Positions 4,958 to 63,332 of a stretch of DNA of 64,000 nucleotides are shown here, piece by piece. Under the pieces are notes generated by a model that did no database searches, was not told the DNA's origin, and saw only the letters and a program-made list of their open reading frames with translations. The DNA comes from Thermus arciformis (GTDB lineage Bacteria > Deinococcota > Deinococci > Deinococcales > Thermaceae): positions 1 through 64,000 of the forward strand of contig NZ_FNBC01000002.1 of assembly GCF_900102145.1 (NCBI RefSeq), written 5' to 3'. The translations under genes and the position numbers were made by a program. Every line of letters starts with the position of its first letter. Position 1 is the first letter of the stretch.

Positions 4958-5729
4958 CCCGCCTCGCCCCCCGGTAGGCCTTCCGGTAGAAGGGGGCCTC
5001 GAGGCTCTCTATGACCACCCGGCTCCCGTAGCTAGAGGCGTGGGCGAAGACCCCCCGGCCCAGGTAGATCCCCACGTGGTCCACCTCCTTACCCCCGAAG
5101 CTGAAGAAGACCAGGTCCCCCGGGCGCAGGGCCTCCGCAGGGGGGAAGGCCTGGTACTGCTCCTTGCTGGTCCGGGGGAGGGCCACCCCCAGCTCGGCGT
5201 AGACCTGGGCCACGAAGGCCGAGCAGTCCAGGGAAAGCGGGGAGTTCGCCCCGTACTTGTAGGGCACCCCCAGGTAGCGGAGGACGGCCCGGAGGAGGGG
5301 GCTTTCCGGGTCGTAGTCCTCGGGAGGAGGGGAAGGCGAGGGGGCTTCGGGGGTAGGGCCTGGGGGGGTGCTCCCACCCTCGGCCTGAGCCCCGGGGAGG
5401 AGGAGCCTCTGGCCCACCTTGAGGTCCGCCGAGGCGAGGCCGTTTAGGCGCATGAGCTCCTCCACCGTGGTGCCGTAGCGCTGGGCCAAGGAAAAGAGGG
5501 TATCCCCCGGGGCCACCACGTGCACCCGGGAAGCGGGGGCTTTCTCAGGGAGCCTGAGCACCTGGCCGGGCTGGAGGAGAAAGCTCTCCAGGCCGTTTAA
5601 GCGCATGAGCTCCTCCACCGTGGTGCCGTGGCGCCGGGCGATGGAATAAAGGGTCTCCCCGGGGGCCACGGTGTGGGTGGGCTGGGCCAGGGCGAGGCCC
5701 AGGGCCAGGGCAAAGGCCGCCCTTCGCAT
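4911..5729 (-). CDS. Secreted cell-wall hydrolase with two LysM repeats and an NlpC/P60 domain
   Basis: A 272-residue exported protein with a signal peptide (about residues 1-16), two LysM peptidoglycan-binding repeats (18-61 and 69-112), a proline/serine-rich linker (about 118-140) and a C-terminal NlpC/P60 peptidase domain. The catalytic set is Cys169 in LDCSAF, His218 in VDHVGIYLG and a third polar residue near His230. Such enzymes cut stem peptides of peptidoglycan, and the LysM repeats anchor them to the wall. The two LysM copies share the run GTTVEELMRLNGL, suggesting recent duplication or gene conversion. The C-terminal coding region overlaps the facing nitroreductase gene. Confidence 0.92.
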   Translation of the reverse strand: MRRAAFALALGLALAQPTHTVAPGETLYSIARRHGTTVEELMRLNGLESFLLQPGQVLRLPEKAPASRVHVVAPGDTLFSLAQRYGTTVEELMRLNGLASADLKVGQRLLLPGAQAEGGSTPPGPTPEAPSPSPPPEDYDPESPLLRAVLRYLGVPYKYGANSPLSLDCSAFVAQVYAELGVALPRTSKEQYQAFPPAEALRPGDLVFFSFGGKEVDHVGIYLGRGVFAHASSYGSRVVIESLEAPFYRKAYRGARRVMASPAPLPGPSAGR

Positions 5730-6318: not shown

Positions 6319-6354
6319 GTTGCAAGAGCTTGAGCCCCGTAAGGGGATTGATAC
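6319..6354 (+). CRISPR. Orphan single CRISPR-type repeat (36 nt)
   Basis: This 36-base unit begins GTTGCAAG, has the central palindrome AGCCCCGTAAGGGG and ends GATTGATAC. From memory, it matches one 36-nt T. thermophilus CRISPR repeat class closely, differing at a few bases after GTTGCAAG and at the 3' end (GATTGCGAC there). I find no second repeat within several hundred bases on either side, so there is no array. The AT-richer stretch just upstream could be a leader, which would make this a collapsed array or an array seed. No cas gene lies in the window. Confidence 0.6.
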
Positions 6355-6759: not shown

Positions 6760-7458
6760 ATGACGGCGTACCCAGTCCTCATCGTGGGCGCGGGGTTTTC
6801 CGGGGCCGAGGCCGCCTTTTGGCTCGCGCAAAGGGGGGTGCGGGTGGGCCTCCTCACCCAGAGCCTGGACGCGGTGATGATGCCCTTCCTGCCCCCCAAA
6901 CCCCCCTTTCCCCCGGGAAGCCTCCTGGAACGGGCCTACGACCCCGAGGACCCAAGGGTCTGGGCCTTCCACGCCCGGGCCAAGTACCTCCTGGAAGGCC
7001 TCAAACCCCTCCACCTCTTCCAGGCCACGGCCACGGGGCTTCTCCTGGAGGGCAACCGGGTGGTGGGGGTCAGGACCTGGGAGGGCCCCCCGGCCCGGGC
7101 GGAAAGGGTGGTGCTCGCGGTGGGGAGCTTCCTCGGGGCGAGGCTTTTCCTGGGCGGGGTGGTGGAGGAGGCGGGCCGGCTTTCCGAGGCGAGCTACCCC
7201 GACCTCCACGAGGACCTCGAGGCCCTGGGCTTCCGCTTCGTGGAGCGGGAGGGGGAGGTGCCGGAAACCCCCTCCACCCCCGGCTACCGGGTGCGCTACC
7301 TGGCCTTCCACCCCGAGGAGTGGGAGGAAAAGACCTTCCGCCTCAAGCGCCTGGAGGGGCTTTACGCCGTGGGCCTATGCGTCCGGGAGGGGGACTACGC
7401 CCACATGAGCGAGGAGGGGAAGCGCCTGGCGGAGCACCTTCTCCATGAGCTTGGGTAG
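6760..7458 (+). CDS. GidA (MnmG)-related short flavoprotein
   Basis: A 232-residue protein with the N-terminal dinucleotide-binding motif VLIVGAGFSGAEAAFWLAQRG and homology to the FAD-binding part of MnmG/GidA and TrmFO, including AERVVLAVGSFLGARLFLGG. It lacks the long tRNA-binding and C-terminal domains of full MnmG (about 600 residues). To my knowledge a T. thermophilus protein of this size, called GidA-related, has been crystallised; its substrate is unknown to me. The last 84 bases overlap the end of the facing mutY gene. The start follows directly after the tRNA-Trp terminator. Confidence 0.88.
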   Translation: MTAYPVLIVGAGFSGAEAAFWLAQRGVRVGLLTQSLDAVMMPFLPPKPPFPPGSLLERAYDPEDPRVWAFHARAKYLLEGLKPLHLFQATATGLLLEGNRVVGVRTWEGPPARAERVVLAVGSFLGARLFLGGVVEEAGRLSEASYPDLHEDLEALGFRFVEREGEVPETPSTPGYRVRYLAFHPEEWEEKTFRLKRLEGLYAVGLCVREGDYAHMSEEGKRLAEHLLHELG

Positions 7459-15442: not shown

Positions 15443-15547
15443 CTAAGTGGCTGCACGTTGATTTCGCAACACGGGTCGCCCGAAATAAGGCTTGGGAAGG
15501 TCCTTTTGGGGCCCCCACCGCGGCGAGAGCCGCGGTGGGGTACTTAG
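15443..15547 (-). repeat. Palindromic element, copy G (between lysW and lysX)
   Basis: Read on the reverse strand this 105-base unit has CTAAGT ends, the hairpin CCCCACCGCGG/CCGCGGTGGGG with loop CTCTCG, then GGGGGCCCCAAAAGG and the GTTGCGAAATCAA region, aligning along its length with copies A-D. Its ends extend into a perfect 17-bp inverted repeat (15432-15448 and 15542-15558), longer than in other copies. It sits inside the lysine operon and will be part of the mRNA. Confidence 0.85.
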
Positions 15548-22072: not shown

Positions 22073-22167
22073 CTAAGCGCCCGCGCATGGATCTTGCCAT
22101 AAGCGACCCCTGGTTTTGGCCCATGGGCGGGCCCTTTTGGGACCCAAGCCGGAGCGGGGCACTTAAG
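22073..22167 (-). repeat. Palindromic element, copy H (degenerate)
   Basis: Read on the reverse strand it starts CTTAAGTGCCCCGCTCCGG, then lacks the right arm of the family hairpin, continues GGTCCCAAAAGGGCCC and ends ATGGCAAGATCC...GGGCGCTTAG. The order of blocks matches copies A-D over about 95 bases. It lies between tRNA-Lys and ubiX, and its TAG end forms part of a -10-like TAGGAT for ubiX. Confidence 0.65.
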
Positions 22168-39845: not shown

Positions 39846-42800
39846 TTAAAAGGGCACCGCCTCCTCCTTGCTCCCGTTCCCCCCGTTCGCCTGCAGGAAG
39901 ACCTCCCGGTCGGGCACCAAGTAGGCCCGGAAGCCCTCGGCCTCGAGGGCCCCCAAGGCCTCCTCCCCCACCCGGGCCTCCCGCAGGGAGAAGAGGGCCT
40001 CCCCAAAGGGCCCCTGGACCCGGACGTAGAGGGGAAGGGGCCCAGGGTGCTCGTCCAGGAGGCTCTTGAGGAGGGCCACCCCCTTCTCGTCCAAAAGGGC
40101 GTGGTCCACCTCCACCTCCAGGGCCTTGGCGGCCTCCGCCACCTCCTCGTGGGTCCAGGCCGCCTGGGCGATGACCCTAAGCCCCCCCTCCTCCCGCTCC
40201 ACCTCCGCCAGGACCAGAAGGGGGGTGTCCTCCTTGAGCTTGGGGGAAACCCCCTCGTAGGCCCGGCCGAAGACCACCACCTCCAAAGCCCCGGTCTCGT
40301 CGGAGAGGGTGAAGCGGGCCATCATGCCCCCGGAGCGGGTGGGCTTGCGCACCACGTCCTCCACCATGCCCGCGAGGAGCACCCTGGACCTCGGAGGAAG
40401 GCCCCGGACGAACTCGGGAAGCTCCTCCAGGGTGCAGCTCGCCGCCTCCCTGAGGCCCGGGTAGCGGAGCACGGGGTGGCCGGAGACGTAGATCCCCAGG
40501 GCCTCCTTCTCGTAGCGGAGCCGGGTGATCTCGTCCAGGGGAGGCGCCTCCTGGAGGGGCGGCTCCTCCACCTCGGCGAAAAGCCCCCACATCCCCGAGC
40601 GCTCCCGCTCCCTAACCCCCGCGGCCCAGCGGAGGAGGGGGTCTAAGGAGGCGAGGAGGCGGGCCCGGTCCCCGAAGGCGTCCATGGCCCCCGCCTTGAT
40701 GAGGGACTCCAGGGTGCGCTTGTTCACCACCTTCTCGTCCAGGCGCTTGAGGAAGTCCCCCAGGCTCTTGAAGGGCCCGCCCCGCTCCCTTTCCTTCAGG
40801 ATGGCCTCCGCCGCGGCCTCCCCCACGTTTTTCACCGCCGAGAGCCCAAAGAGGATCTCCTCCCCCACCACCTTGAAGTCAAAGCCCGAGCGGTTGATGT
40901 CCGGGGGAAGGACCTCTATGCCCATGGCCCGGGCGTCGCGGATGTACTCGGCCACCTTGTCGGAGTCGTGCCGCTCCACGGAGAGGAGGGCGGCCATGAA
41001 CTCCACGGGGTAGTGGGCCTTCACGTAGGCGGTCTGGTAGGAGAGGAGGCTGTAGGCGGCGGCGTGGGAGTTGTGGACGATGACGTCCTCGGCCACGAAG
41101 GTGTGGGTGCCCTCCACCGTGAGGTCAAAGACCTCCTCCTCCCCCAAGGGCTCCACCGCCTCCACCCGGTCCCAATACACCTCGGCCTCGGCCAGGCGGA
41201 GAAGGGCTAAGTACCCCGCTCTGGCTTGCGCCAGAGCGGGGGCCCCAAAAGAGCCTTCGCAAAGCCCTACCCCGGGCGTCCCATGTGGCGAAATCAAGGT
41301 GCGGGCACTTAGGCTCCCCGTGAGGGCGGCAAGCCGCCCCACCGTGGCCCGGGAAAGCCCCCGCCGCCCCCTGCCGGGGCGCAAGCCCGCTTCCCGGAGA
41401 AGGGCCGCCGCCTGCCCTTGGGCCACCGCCTCCCTCACCTCCTCCAGGAAGGCGAGGGGGAGGACATCTTTGGTACTCTGGCCCGCCTCTCCCCAGGAGG
41501 CGAGGAGGGCCTCGAGGTCTTGCCGCCGCTTGCCCACAAGGTAGGGGCCCACGGTTTCGGCGAAGCGGCGGGCCGCCTCCAGCCCCCCCAGGAGGTACAC
41601 CGCATACCCCTTGTACCCACCGGAAAAGCGCTTTTCCACCAGGCGGGACTGGAGCCCCAGGCGCAGGAGGAGGTGCTGCACCCCTGAGGCGAGCTCCTTG
41701 GAGGCGGTGGCGTAGTGGATGAGCCTCCCCTTCGGGTCCACCCCGCCATCCCCGGTCCAAAGCCGCCCCAAAAAGCGGGCCACCTCCTCGGGAGGTAGGC
41801 CGAAGACCGCCTCGGGAAGGCGCTTCGTCTTCGCGTCAAGCCCGAGAAGCCCCATCCGCCTCAGGAAGGCCACCGCGCCCGCCTCTTGCCTCCGGTCCAT
41901 GCGGCCCACGTAAACGTGGGCCACCCCCCGGCGCCAGACCACCCGGGTGCGGGTGTTGGGGAAGGCCCGCAAAGCCTCCTCCATGGCGGCGAGCTCCTCC
42001 TCCGAGGAGGTGTAGAGGTAGAAGCCGGAGGGGTGGCGGAGGTTCCCCTCGGCCAGGGCGAAGCCCAAAAGGTCCAGCTCGTGGGCCTCGAGGTGGGCCG
42101 AAGGCCGGTAGGGCAGGTGGCGGGGCAGGGCCACGTAGTCCCCCGGGGCCAAGGCCCCCAGGGGCCGCCACCCTCGAGGGGTGTAGACCGGGTGGTTGGC
42201 CGTGGCCTCCAAGACCCTACCCGTGGCGGTGCGGAGGGCGTAGACCTGGGCCTTTCCGCTTGGAAAGGCCGCCACCACGGGCCGCGGCACCAGGCGGAGG
42301 CGGGCCTCGTCCAGGGAAACCACCCAGACCTCCTCCACCTCGCCCCGGACGATCTCCCCCACGCGCACCACCCTCCCGGTGCGCCAGTCCACCACCCGGG
42401 CCCGGGCGGGGAGGCACTTGTTGAAGCCATAGTTGGCGAAGGCCTCCAGCATGTCAAAGAGGCGGTTCGCCTCCTCCTCGGGCACGCCCCTTTCCTTGGC
42501 CCCCCGGACGAAGCGCTCCCGGTGTTTCTGCATTTCTTCCACCCGCTTCTTCCCCATGGCCCGCCTGAGCAGGTCCGCCTCGCCCAGGGAGTACCCCGCC
42601 ACCTGGGAGGCAATCTGCATGATCTGCTCCTGGTAGACGGGGATGCCGTAGGTCTCGTCCAGGATGGGCTTTAGGTACTTCTCGGCGTGGGGAAACTCGC
42701 TGTAGCTCACGGGCTCCTGCCCGTGGTGGCGGCGGATGTAGGTGGGGATGTGCTCCATGGGCCCGGGGCGGTAGAGGGAGACCAGGGCGATGATGTCCTC

Positions 42801-48377: not shown

Positions 48378-48512
48378 AAGCCCTCCTTGTTCTCCGAATA
48401 CCCTACTCCTTATGGGGCGGGGTTGACTAGGGGCATTTACCCCCTCTCCTTGGGGATACGGCCCGGAACCCCGTCCGGGCTCACACCCTTTCTCCCTGTT
48501 TCCTTCGCCCGG

Positions 48513-48618
48513 CTAAGTACCCCGCTCTGGCTTGCGCCAGAGCGGGGGCCCCAAAAGAGCCTTCGCAAAGCCCCACTTCCGGCGTCCCATGTGGCGAAAT
48601 CAAGGCGCGGGCACTTAA
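48513..48618 (+). repeat. Palindromic element, copy B
   Basis: A 106-base unit with CTAAGTACCCCG start, the same CCCCGCTCTGG/CCAGAGCGGGG hairpin as copy A, GGGGCCCCAAAAGAGCC and GCGCGGGCACTTAA end. It differs from A at a handful of bases in the middle. It abuts copy F through a shared GGGCACTTAAGTGCCC palindrome. Confidence 0.92.
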
Positions 48619-48684
48619 GTGCCCGAGGAAGCCCCTTGAGAACCTTTTGCCGGGGCCCCCATGCTGCGCAAGCCAGCATGGGGT
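48613..48684 (-). repeat. Palindromic element, copy F (truncated)
   Basis: On the reverse strand CCACCCCATGCTGGCTTGCG, then CAGCATGGGGGCCCC, and ending GGGCACTTAA. The hairpin is the CATGCTGG variant shared with copy E. The CTAAGT start and several interior bases are missing. It faces copy B and shares its end. Confidence 0.8.
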
Positions 48685-48687
48685 GGT

Positions 48688-49155
48688 TCACTCCTCCCGG
48701 TCGGCTTGGTGGAGCCGCCTCCCCCAGGGGCTTCGGGGAGCGTGGTGCTCCAGAACCAGGGCCCGCACCTTTGGGTCTTGGATCCGCTCCGCCCCATAGA
48801 GGGGATGGTGGCGGCGCACCTGAAAGGCCCCGAAAAGCCCCCGGCGCAAGGGGTAAGGGGGCACGGGCGGGGCGAAAAGCCCCGTGAGGACCCTTTCCAG
48901 GGGGCGGTAGGGCCTTAGGGCCTTTCCCGCGTCGTGAAGCAAGGCAGCCCGCACGGCGAAGGCGGGGGCCTCGGGGTGGGCCTTAAGGAGCCTCTTCGCC
49001 ACCCGCACCGCGTGGGCCCGGTCCCGGGGGTCCATGGCCAGGTAAAGGGCCCGTTCCTCCTCGGCCAGAACCCCGAGGGCGAAGGCGTCGTCGGGAGCCT
49101 CGCGGGCGAAGAGGGCCCTAAGAAGCCGCCCAAGCCGCCGGAGGAGGCGAGGCAT
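48688..49155 (-). CDS. HD-domain hydrolase-like protein
   Basis: A 155-residue protein with the HD motif RAALLHDAGKAL and later histidines HHPLYGAERI and LEHHAP, typical of HD/HDIG phosphohydrolases that bind divalent metals and cut nucleotides. DPRDRAHAVRVAKRLL precedes. The substrate is unknown. It ends right at the boundary of repeat copy F and starts three bases after the CsoR-family gene, so they may be co-transcribed. Confidence 0.83.
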   Translation of the reverse strand: MPRLLRRLGRLLRALFAREAPDDAFALGVLAEEERALYLAMDPRDRAHAVRVAKRLLKAHPEAPAFAVRAALLHDAGKALRPYRPLERVLTGLFAPPVPPYPLRRGLFGAFQVRRHHPLYGAERIQDPKVRALVLEHHAPRSPWGRRLHQADREE

Positions 49156-57773: not shown

Positions 57774-58240
57774 TGCGCCGGGAGATCCTGGTGGTGGCGG
57801 CCATCCTCCTGGACCGCCAGGGGCGGGTGCTCCTGGTGGGAAACGACTGGGGGCGCCGGGGCCAGGTGCGCTACACCCTCCCCGGGGGCACCGTGGAGCC
57901 GGGGGAAACGGTGCTGGAGGCCCTGGTGCGGGAGGTGCGGGAGGAGACGGGGCTTAGGGTGAAGGCCGTGGAGCACCTGGCCTACGTGATCCAGGTGGAG
58001 GACCGCCGCAAGAACGAGCGCACCCTGGCCATGGCCTTCCGGGCCAGCTACGAGGGGCTTCTGAACCCCCGGGACCCCGATGGGCACATCGTGGAGGCCC
58101 GCTTCTTCACCCCGGAGGAGGTGGCGGCGAGGCTCTCCGGCCACCGCCCCCTCCAGGAGCCCCTTCTGGACTACCTGGCGGGGGAGCGGGGGCGGTTCTA
58201 CGCCTACCCGGGATGGGGCCTCCCGGGGGTGCGGGTCTAA
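57773..58240 (+). CDS. Nudix hydrolase
   Basis: A 155-residue Nudix protein with box GGTVEPGETVLEALVREV then REETGL. The substrate is unknown. The start is ATG 57773, overlapping the prfA stop as TGATG. The stop codon TAA (58238-58240) lies within CTAAGT, the end of repeat copy C, so insertion of the element set the present C-terminus. Relatives may be longer or end differently. Confidence 0.87.
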   Translation: MRREILVVAAILLDRQGRVLLVGNDWGRRGQVRYTLPGGTVEPGETVLEALVREVREETGLRVKAVEHLAYVIQVEDRRKNERTLAMAFRASYEGLLNPRDPDGHIVEARFFTPEEVAARLSGHRPLQEPLLDYLAGERGRFYAYPGWGLPGVRV

Positions 58241-58342
58241 GTACCCCGCTCTGGCTTGCGCCAGAGCGGGGGCCCCAAAAGAGCCTTCGCAAAGCCCTAT
58301 TTCCAGCGTCCTATGTGGCAAAATCAAGGTGTGGGCACTTAA
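58237..58342 (+). repeat. Palindromic element, copy C
   Basis: A 106-base unit with the CCCCGCTCTGG/CCAGAGCGGGG hairpin and GGGGCCCCAAAAGAGCC, ending GTGTGGGCACTTAA. Its left end supplies the Nudix stop codon. It is directly followed, sharing ACTTAA, by copy E in the same orientation. Confidence 0.93.
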
Positions 58343-58434
58343 TACCGCCCCATGCTGGCTTGCGCCAGCATGGGGGCCCCAAAAGAACTTTCCCAATTTC
58401 GGGCAACCCGTGTTGCGAAAGTGCAACCCCTTAG
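58338..58434 (+). repeat. Palindromic element, copy E
   Basis: A 97-base unit starting CTTAATACCGCCCC. The hairpin is CATGCTGG/CCAGCATG with the same CTTGCG loop, then GGGGGCCCCAAAAGAAC, AACCCGTGTTGCGAAA and ending CCCTTAG. The stem sequence differs from copies A-D on both arms but still pairs. Its right end TTA forms the stop codon of the next gene, which is on the other strand. Confidence 0.88.
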
Positions 58435-63226: not shown

Positions 63227-63332
63227 CTAAGTACCCCGCTCTGGCTTGCGCCAGAGCGGGGGCCCCAAAAGAGCCTTCGCAAAGCCCTACCCCCGGCGTC
63301 CCATGTGGCGAAATCAAGGTGCGGGCACTTAG
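63227..63332 (+). repeat. Palindromic element, copy D
   Basis: A 106-base unit nearly identical to copy A (one visible difference in the middle, ACCCCCGG versus ACCCCGGG). It lies between the convergent ends of the OYE gene and the winged-helix regulator and touches neither stop codon. Confidence 0.93.

Follow-up and report, generated by a model that had tools for sequence, protein, structure and literature searches.

The repeats that recur in this 64-kb stretch of Thermus DNA (the window) are very probably non-autonomous IS630-type mini-transposons (MITEs) of about 100 bp, which insert at TA, mostly within CTAG, and whose ends are re-used as insertion sites. Alignment of copies defined an element of ∼100 bp without a transposase gene, with the left tip TA-AGTACCCC and the right tip GGGCACT-TA. 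Two main subtypes, 1a and 1b, are set apart by their tails and hairpin stems. The repeat at 48513-48684, reported in an initial annotation of the window, is genuine, and its element B measures 100 bp between two TA dinucleotides. The sequence GGGCACTTAAGTGCCC is located at 48609-48624 and GCACTTAATACCG starts at 58335, while GGGCACTTAA occurs four times in the window compared with 0.04 occurrences expected from shuffles. Copies A and D had been described as single copies ending in CTTAG, and both do end in ...CACTTA-G. The copies are listed with associated features in Table 1. An Rfam scan of the window returned only tRNA and CRISPR repeat matches, and the elements match no curated RNA family. 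The CRISPR direct repeat (RF01346) lies at 6319-6354; separately, two 80-base direct repeats at 5437-5669 (89% alike, spaced 153 bases) are probably repeated protein domains.

Table 1. Element copies and associated features in the window.
Feature	Position	Strand	Remarks
Type 1b copy	15444..15546	-	overlooked in the initial annotation
Degenerate copy	22074..22165	-	overlooked in the initial annotation
Element A, type 1a	41208..41311	+	lone copy, CTAG site
Family-2 host repeat, one part	48483..48515	-	holds the GGC-TA target
Element B, type 1a	48514..48617	+	TA, 100-bp element 48516-48615, TA; tips AGTACCC / GGGCACT
Hairpin at the head of B	48520..48547	+	12 bp, 4-nt loop
Right target TA of B and three extra bases	48616..48620	+	AGT (48618-48620) missing from intact family-2 copies
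Family-2 host repeat, other part	48618..48689	-	F of the initial annotation; own ATGCTGG hairpin
Element C, type 1a	58238..58341	+	tail joins E
Element E, chimera	58342..58433	+	family-2 head (ATACC), type-1b-like tail; ends with TA 58432-58433
Element D, type 1a	63228..63331	+	lone copy, CTAG site

The genome from which the window derives (G000; 2.44 Mb in 88 contigs) contains 49 BLAST matches to the B element. Matches are present in 21 of 27 Thermus genomes, with 51 in G005 and none in G015. In a pattern scan that took a single genome for each species, the element turned up in Thermus alone, in 11 stretches belonging to T. sp. JCM 17653, T. composti and T. parvatiensis, and further copies reside on T. 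thermophilus plasmids, one T. aquaticus plasmid and the Thermus phage phiMa. For quantification, 107 profile hits were reduced to 77 copies with both ends present and distinct flanks, some of them orthologous between G000 and strain TMY (G026). A literature search found no earlier description of this Thermus mini-transposon family, and we regard these repeats as a new family of an already known type, RUP-like in its working.

TA flanks the element on both sides in 71 of the 77 copies. To compare occupied with empty sites, we joined the flanks on one TA and searched related genomes for an ungapped joint. Fourteen loci were queried, six of which were represented among the loci retrieved: empty sites were ungapped in all spanning hits for L026 (2/2) and A (4/4) and in at least one each for L030 and L040, and no clean empty site was present among related genomes for the other two, L031 and L049. 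At the C/E site, which is empty in eight genomes, the joint with one TA was ungapped in 8/8 spanning hits, and at L034 9 of 14 spanning hits had zero gaps. The clearest cases come from closely related sequences. A copy on plasmid pTF19b is identical to B over 105 bases (100%), and its site is empty in pTMY (97.3%) and in pTT27 of HB27 (90.5%), reading GGGCTA-GGG without gaps in 2/2. Phage phiMa is likewise occupied where phage Cumys is empty (ungapped, 1/1); the SNM7-6 site had diverged relatives only, with no clean empty joint among them. The empty sites have the motif C-TA-G in common, and TA is what is duplicated. Thus, the proposal of a TTAA/CTAG-like target was correct as to CTAG, whereas the duplicated unit is the TA within C-TA-G and TTAA is ruled out as the target by the empty sites. 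TTAA arises only at points where ACT-TA runs into TA-A. After de-duplication and removal of junction copies, the 77 copies gave 60 target sites, which read CTAG in 38 and YTAR in 56, against a background of 45 and 166, respectively, among 973 TA sites of the window outside elements. Relative to empty sites, the TA is doubled, and among targets CTAG is preferred; counted differently, from sequence, one TA may belong to the element, in which case there would be no duplication.

Many copies lie at the ends of genes. The left TA is the annotated stop of the upstream gene in four of seven annotated regions (pTF19b first copy, SNM7-6, phiMa and pTMY). Where the pTF19b site is unoccupied, as in pTMY and HB27, the TAG stop of that gene lies on the target. 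As both tips begin with AGT, insertion converts a TAG stop into TAA, a direct consequence of the sequence. The phiMa copy (L190, 2002-2104) sits at the stop codon of a phage gene and is missing in Cumys. Using a coding-score test, 36 of the 77 copies were at stops of coding-like frames. Among CTAG-inserted copies, 17/40 were at stops, near the window background (16/44 CTAG sites), and therefore no special targeting of stop codons is needed. A literature search on CTAG or stop-codon targeting found nothing relevant.

The element carries a hairpin that starts four bases after the left TA. Five of the 12 stem pairs changed on both sides, in 32 such cells, and none of 500 shuffles reached this cell count and covariation score. 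This set comprised 17 of 26 hairpin types plus the ATGCTGG type; nine types were omitted, three of them badly broken, so that the 97.7% pairing in the selected types is a flattering figure. Across all 77 copies, 12/12 pairs form in 62 (G-U allowed), 11 in 12 and fewer in 3. Loops occur both ways round (TTTC/GAAA, TTGC/GCAA), and between two orthologous 1b copies, L025 (G000 C43:68500-76100; 6986-7088) and L179 (TMY), the loop is flipped, reading GAAA versus TTTC. The hairpin therefore seems to invert in place, and such inversion could preserve the pairing of the stem even if the RNA had no function. The maintenance of the stem through compensatory changes, RNA folding better than shuffles (z -3.0) and the 36 copies at stop codons would all fit immobile repeats retained downstream of genes because they function as terminators or RNA elements. 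However, we consider such fixed elements very improbable: presence is polymorphic with exact empty sites, including on plasmids and a phage, the stop share at CTAG sites is near background, and no T tract follows the hairpin.

B and F had been described as copies facing each other. This was ruled out, as B split a different repeat, of which F is the second half. When B and one TA are removed, 48483-48515 and 48618-48689 align end to end as a single copy of a second family (family 2), with three extra bases at the joint, and the repeat exists without B in G018. Family 2, with ATACC tips and an ATGCTGG hairpin, is common in the window's own genome, where a 142-base query from the F region gave 37 matches, many of them hairpin-only. 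At the B locus, B is absent from G018 and G013, whose family-2 copies are deleted or degenerate, and T. parvatiensis (G016) carries no repeat. A comparable GGC-TA site next to family-2-like sequence is occupied by copy L022 (C36). The three additional AGT bases next to B match the element tip exactly and are possibly an excision footprint, although the expected second TA is missing. Some family-2 copies among L116-L118, L120 and L134 are followed by GA or CA rather than TA. Chimeras with family-2 heads and type-1 tails (E in the window, L038 and L043) suggest exchange at the shared hairpin.

The nested arrangement of B means that, of two independent end-to-end junctions originally proposed, only C/E joins two copies. 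There, the tandem pair is a true junction with one common TA (58340-58341). Across G000, eight junctions share a TA: C66:24530, C43:75486, C43:58341 (C/E), C68:20257, C43:69125, C50:15723, C58:11658 and C49:9662. Four are head-head, four tail-head and none tail-tail. As junction partners differ in subtype or are chimeric or truncated, the junctions are not local duplications. With 82 ends and the non-coding TTAG/CTAA rate, 0.56 junctions were expected (P 1.4e-7); scaling to all copies raised this to 0.88 (P 4e-6) and the non-coding CTAG rate to 2.6 (P 0.006). These backgrounds were scaled from the one 64-kb window with our own gene calls, and in the junction count partners need not possess both ends. 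Element ends are over-used as insertion sites, as had been suggested; a shared empty-site motif and an excess of junctions over chance were found, the opposite of what the initial annotation had named as refuting this.

At the 75486 junction, TMY holds 1b alone and G000 holds 1a and 1b between the same flanks (119/125 identical downstream of the TA), so that the TMY state is a one-copy intermediate. At the C/E site, JCM 17653 carries one element, with a different internal sequence, and the window carries two. Genome G005 has TA-sharing junctions at L229, L244 and L233, and probably a further one at L247. An explanation by target abundance and purifying selection only, in which ends are merely safe YTAR sites, is the alternative to which we give most weight, but we still think it unlikely. 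The ends do lie in non-coding DNA and belong to an accepted class (CTAA/TTAG), and in TMY the copies form only two junctions that share a TA, L177 and L156, in the latter of which an IS630 tip and an element tail have one TA in common. Nonetheless, eight junctions exceed the number predicted from same-class non-coding sites, and even that at the CTAG rate, and G005 adds three or four more. Another mobile-element end, GAGGCTGTCGTAAAA, adjoins the right TA of elements at L239, L250 and L252 (G005) and at L158/L191 and L185 (TMY); other ISs may also insert at element ends. The head takes part in all eight G000 junctions. A rather speculative and improbable extension is that the head hairpin acts as a landing pad: its stem, which can invert and evolves by compensatory changes, would draw insertions to the nearby TA, only a few bases off, such that elements recruit each other.

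Candidate partners of the element are IS630 transposons. In TMY, these span 1,056 bp between flanking TAs and have tips AGTGCC...TCAA (TA-AGTGCC), and those of G025 and G002 have the same tips. In the window's own genome, the right tip of an IS630 that has lost its left end (L085) is identical to the 1a tail at 19/24 positions and to the 1b tail at 17/24, and the element tail matches other AGTGCC-type IS630 tips at 13-15/24. About 0.3% of the 1,995 window 24-mers that follow TA match the tails equally well, which we take to be the element copies themselves. At the head, only AGTaCC is in common with IS630 tips, the remainder being the hairpin. Family 2 matches an ATACC-tipped IS630 of G018 at 21/24 positions at one end, and at least three contig-end fragments of this kind are found in the window's own genome. 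On C76 of the window's own genome, an IS630 transposase, in an IS whose left end is lost, scored above the NF033545 cut-off, with further fragments at contig ends. An inverted-repeat scan of IS630 loci gave no convincing ends at most other loci. Copies and an IS630 partner are uncoupled in some genomes: G005 has 51 element matches, no PF13358 match, no intact IS630 and one broken IS630, and G015 has no element match and seven PF13358 matches, with no correlation by eye between copy number and IS630 number.

We infer that an IS630 transposase mobilises the element in trans. A strong, conserved 12-bp hairpin near one end with compensatory changes could also point to REP-like or IS200/IS605-type elements, which a Y1 (RAYT) transposase moves in single-stranded form and which leave the target unduplicated. 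We rejected this origin as the least probable of all those considered: the window's own genome has no Y1_Tnp match (PF01797, 0 matches; 5 of 14 control genomes match), inverted AGT/ACT tips stand at both ends with TA on both sides in nearly all copies, and the element tips resemble those of DDE IS630s. In the IS630-type model, a transposase supplied in trans would excise the ∼100-bp element and insert it at a TA, mostly that of CTAG, thereby duplicating the TA. CTAG is rare in GC-rich Thermus DNA and often contains a TAG stop, and insertion there leaves a TAA stop. With each insertion, harmless DNA gains two TA sites, C-TA-A and T-TA-G, one on each side of the element; later copies re-use these more often than comparable non-coding ones, so that copies come to lie end to end with one TA in common. 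The over-use of these sites might come from tethering by a transposase bound to an end already in place, or from the DNA shape around the hairpin end.

The closest known system is the pneumococcal RUP, which is described as a ∼107-bp, non-coding, extragenic element with a TA target and tips like those of the resident IS630-Spn1, with mobilisation in trans proposed and a tendency to insert in or near IS elements (PMC3049150, PMC2229807). Going by these descriptions, the Thermus element resembles RUP in all these respects, mobilisation in trans being likewise a proposal, and differs in its host, its CTAG preference, the asymmetric hairpin at one end, the occurrence of two families that have swapped ends, and insertion right at the ends of elements with a TA in common. 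To our knowledge, a hairpin directly beside one tip is not the layout of Correia/NEMIS, ERIC or other TA-flanked MITEs. These are described as 100-200 bp long with terminal inverted repeats and TA at their ends (PMC2229807), and by that description they are similar to the Thermus element in all three respects. For Thermus IS630s, a table entry gives ISTth6 a direct repeat of 2, that is, a 2-bp duplication (PMC6352166); ISTth6 resembles the element in this trait, and several Thermus IS630s have AGTGCC tips, but these ISs are about 1.05-1.1 kb long and encode a transposase. ISY100 (IS630/Tc1-mariner), for which TA insertion and duplication are reported to have been shown biochemically (PMC2170065), is autonomous and from another host and serves as a mechanistic model.

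Overall, the Thermus family is distinguished by its CTAG target, asymmetric hairpin, exchanged ends of two families and documented end re-use. A model thermophile genus thereby gains a genus-wide mini-transposon family, which accounts for palindromic intergenic repeats otherwise annotated as terminators or REP sequences. Near-identical plasmid and phage loci provide natural before-and-after alleles, from which the mobilising transposase, and whether IS630-type transposases favour DNA beside their own ends, can be tested.
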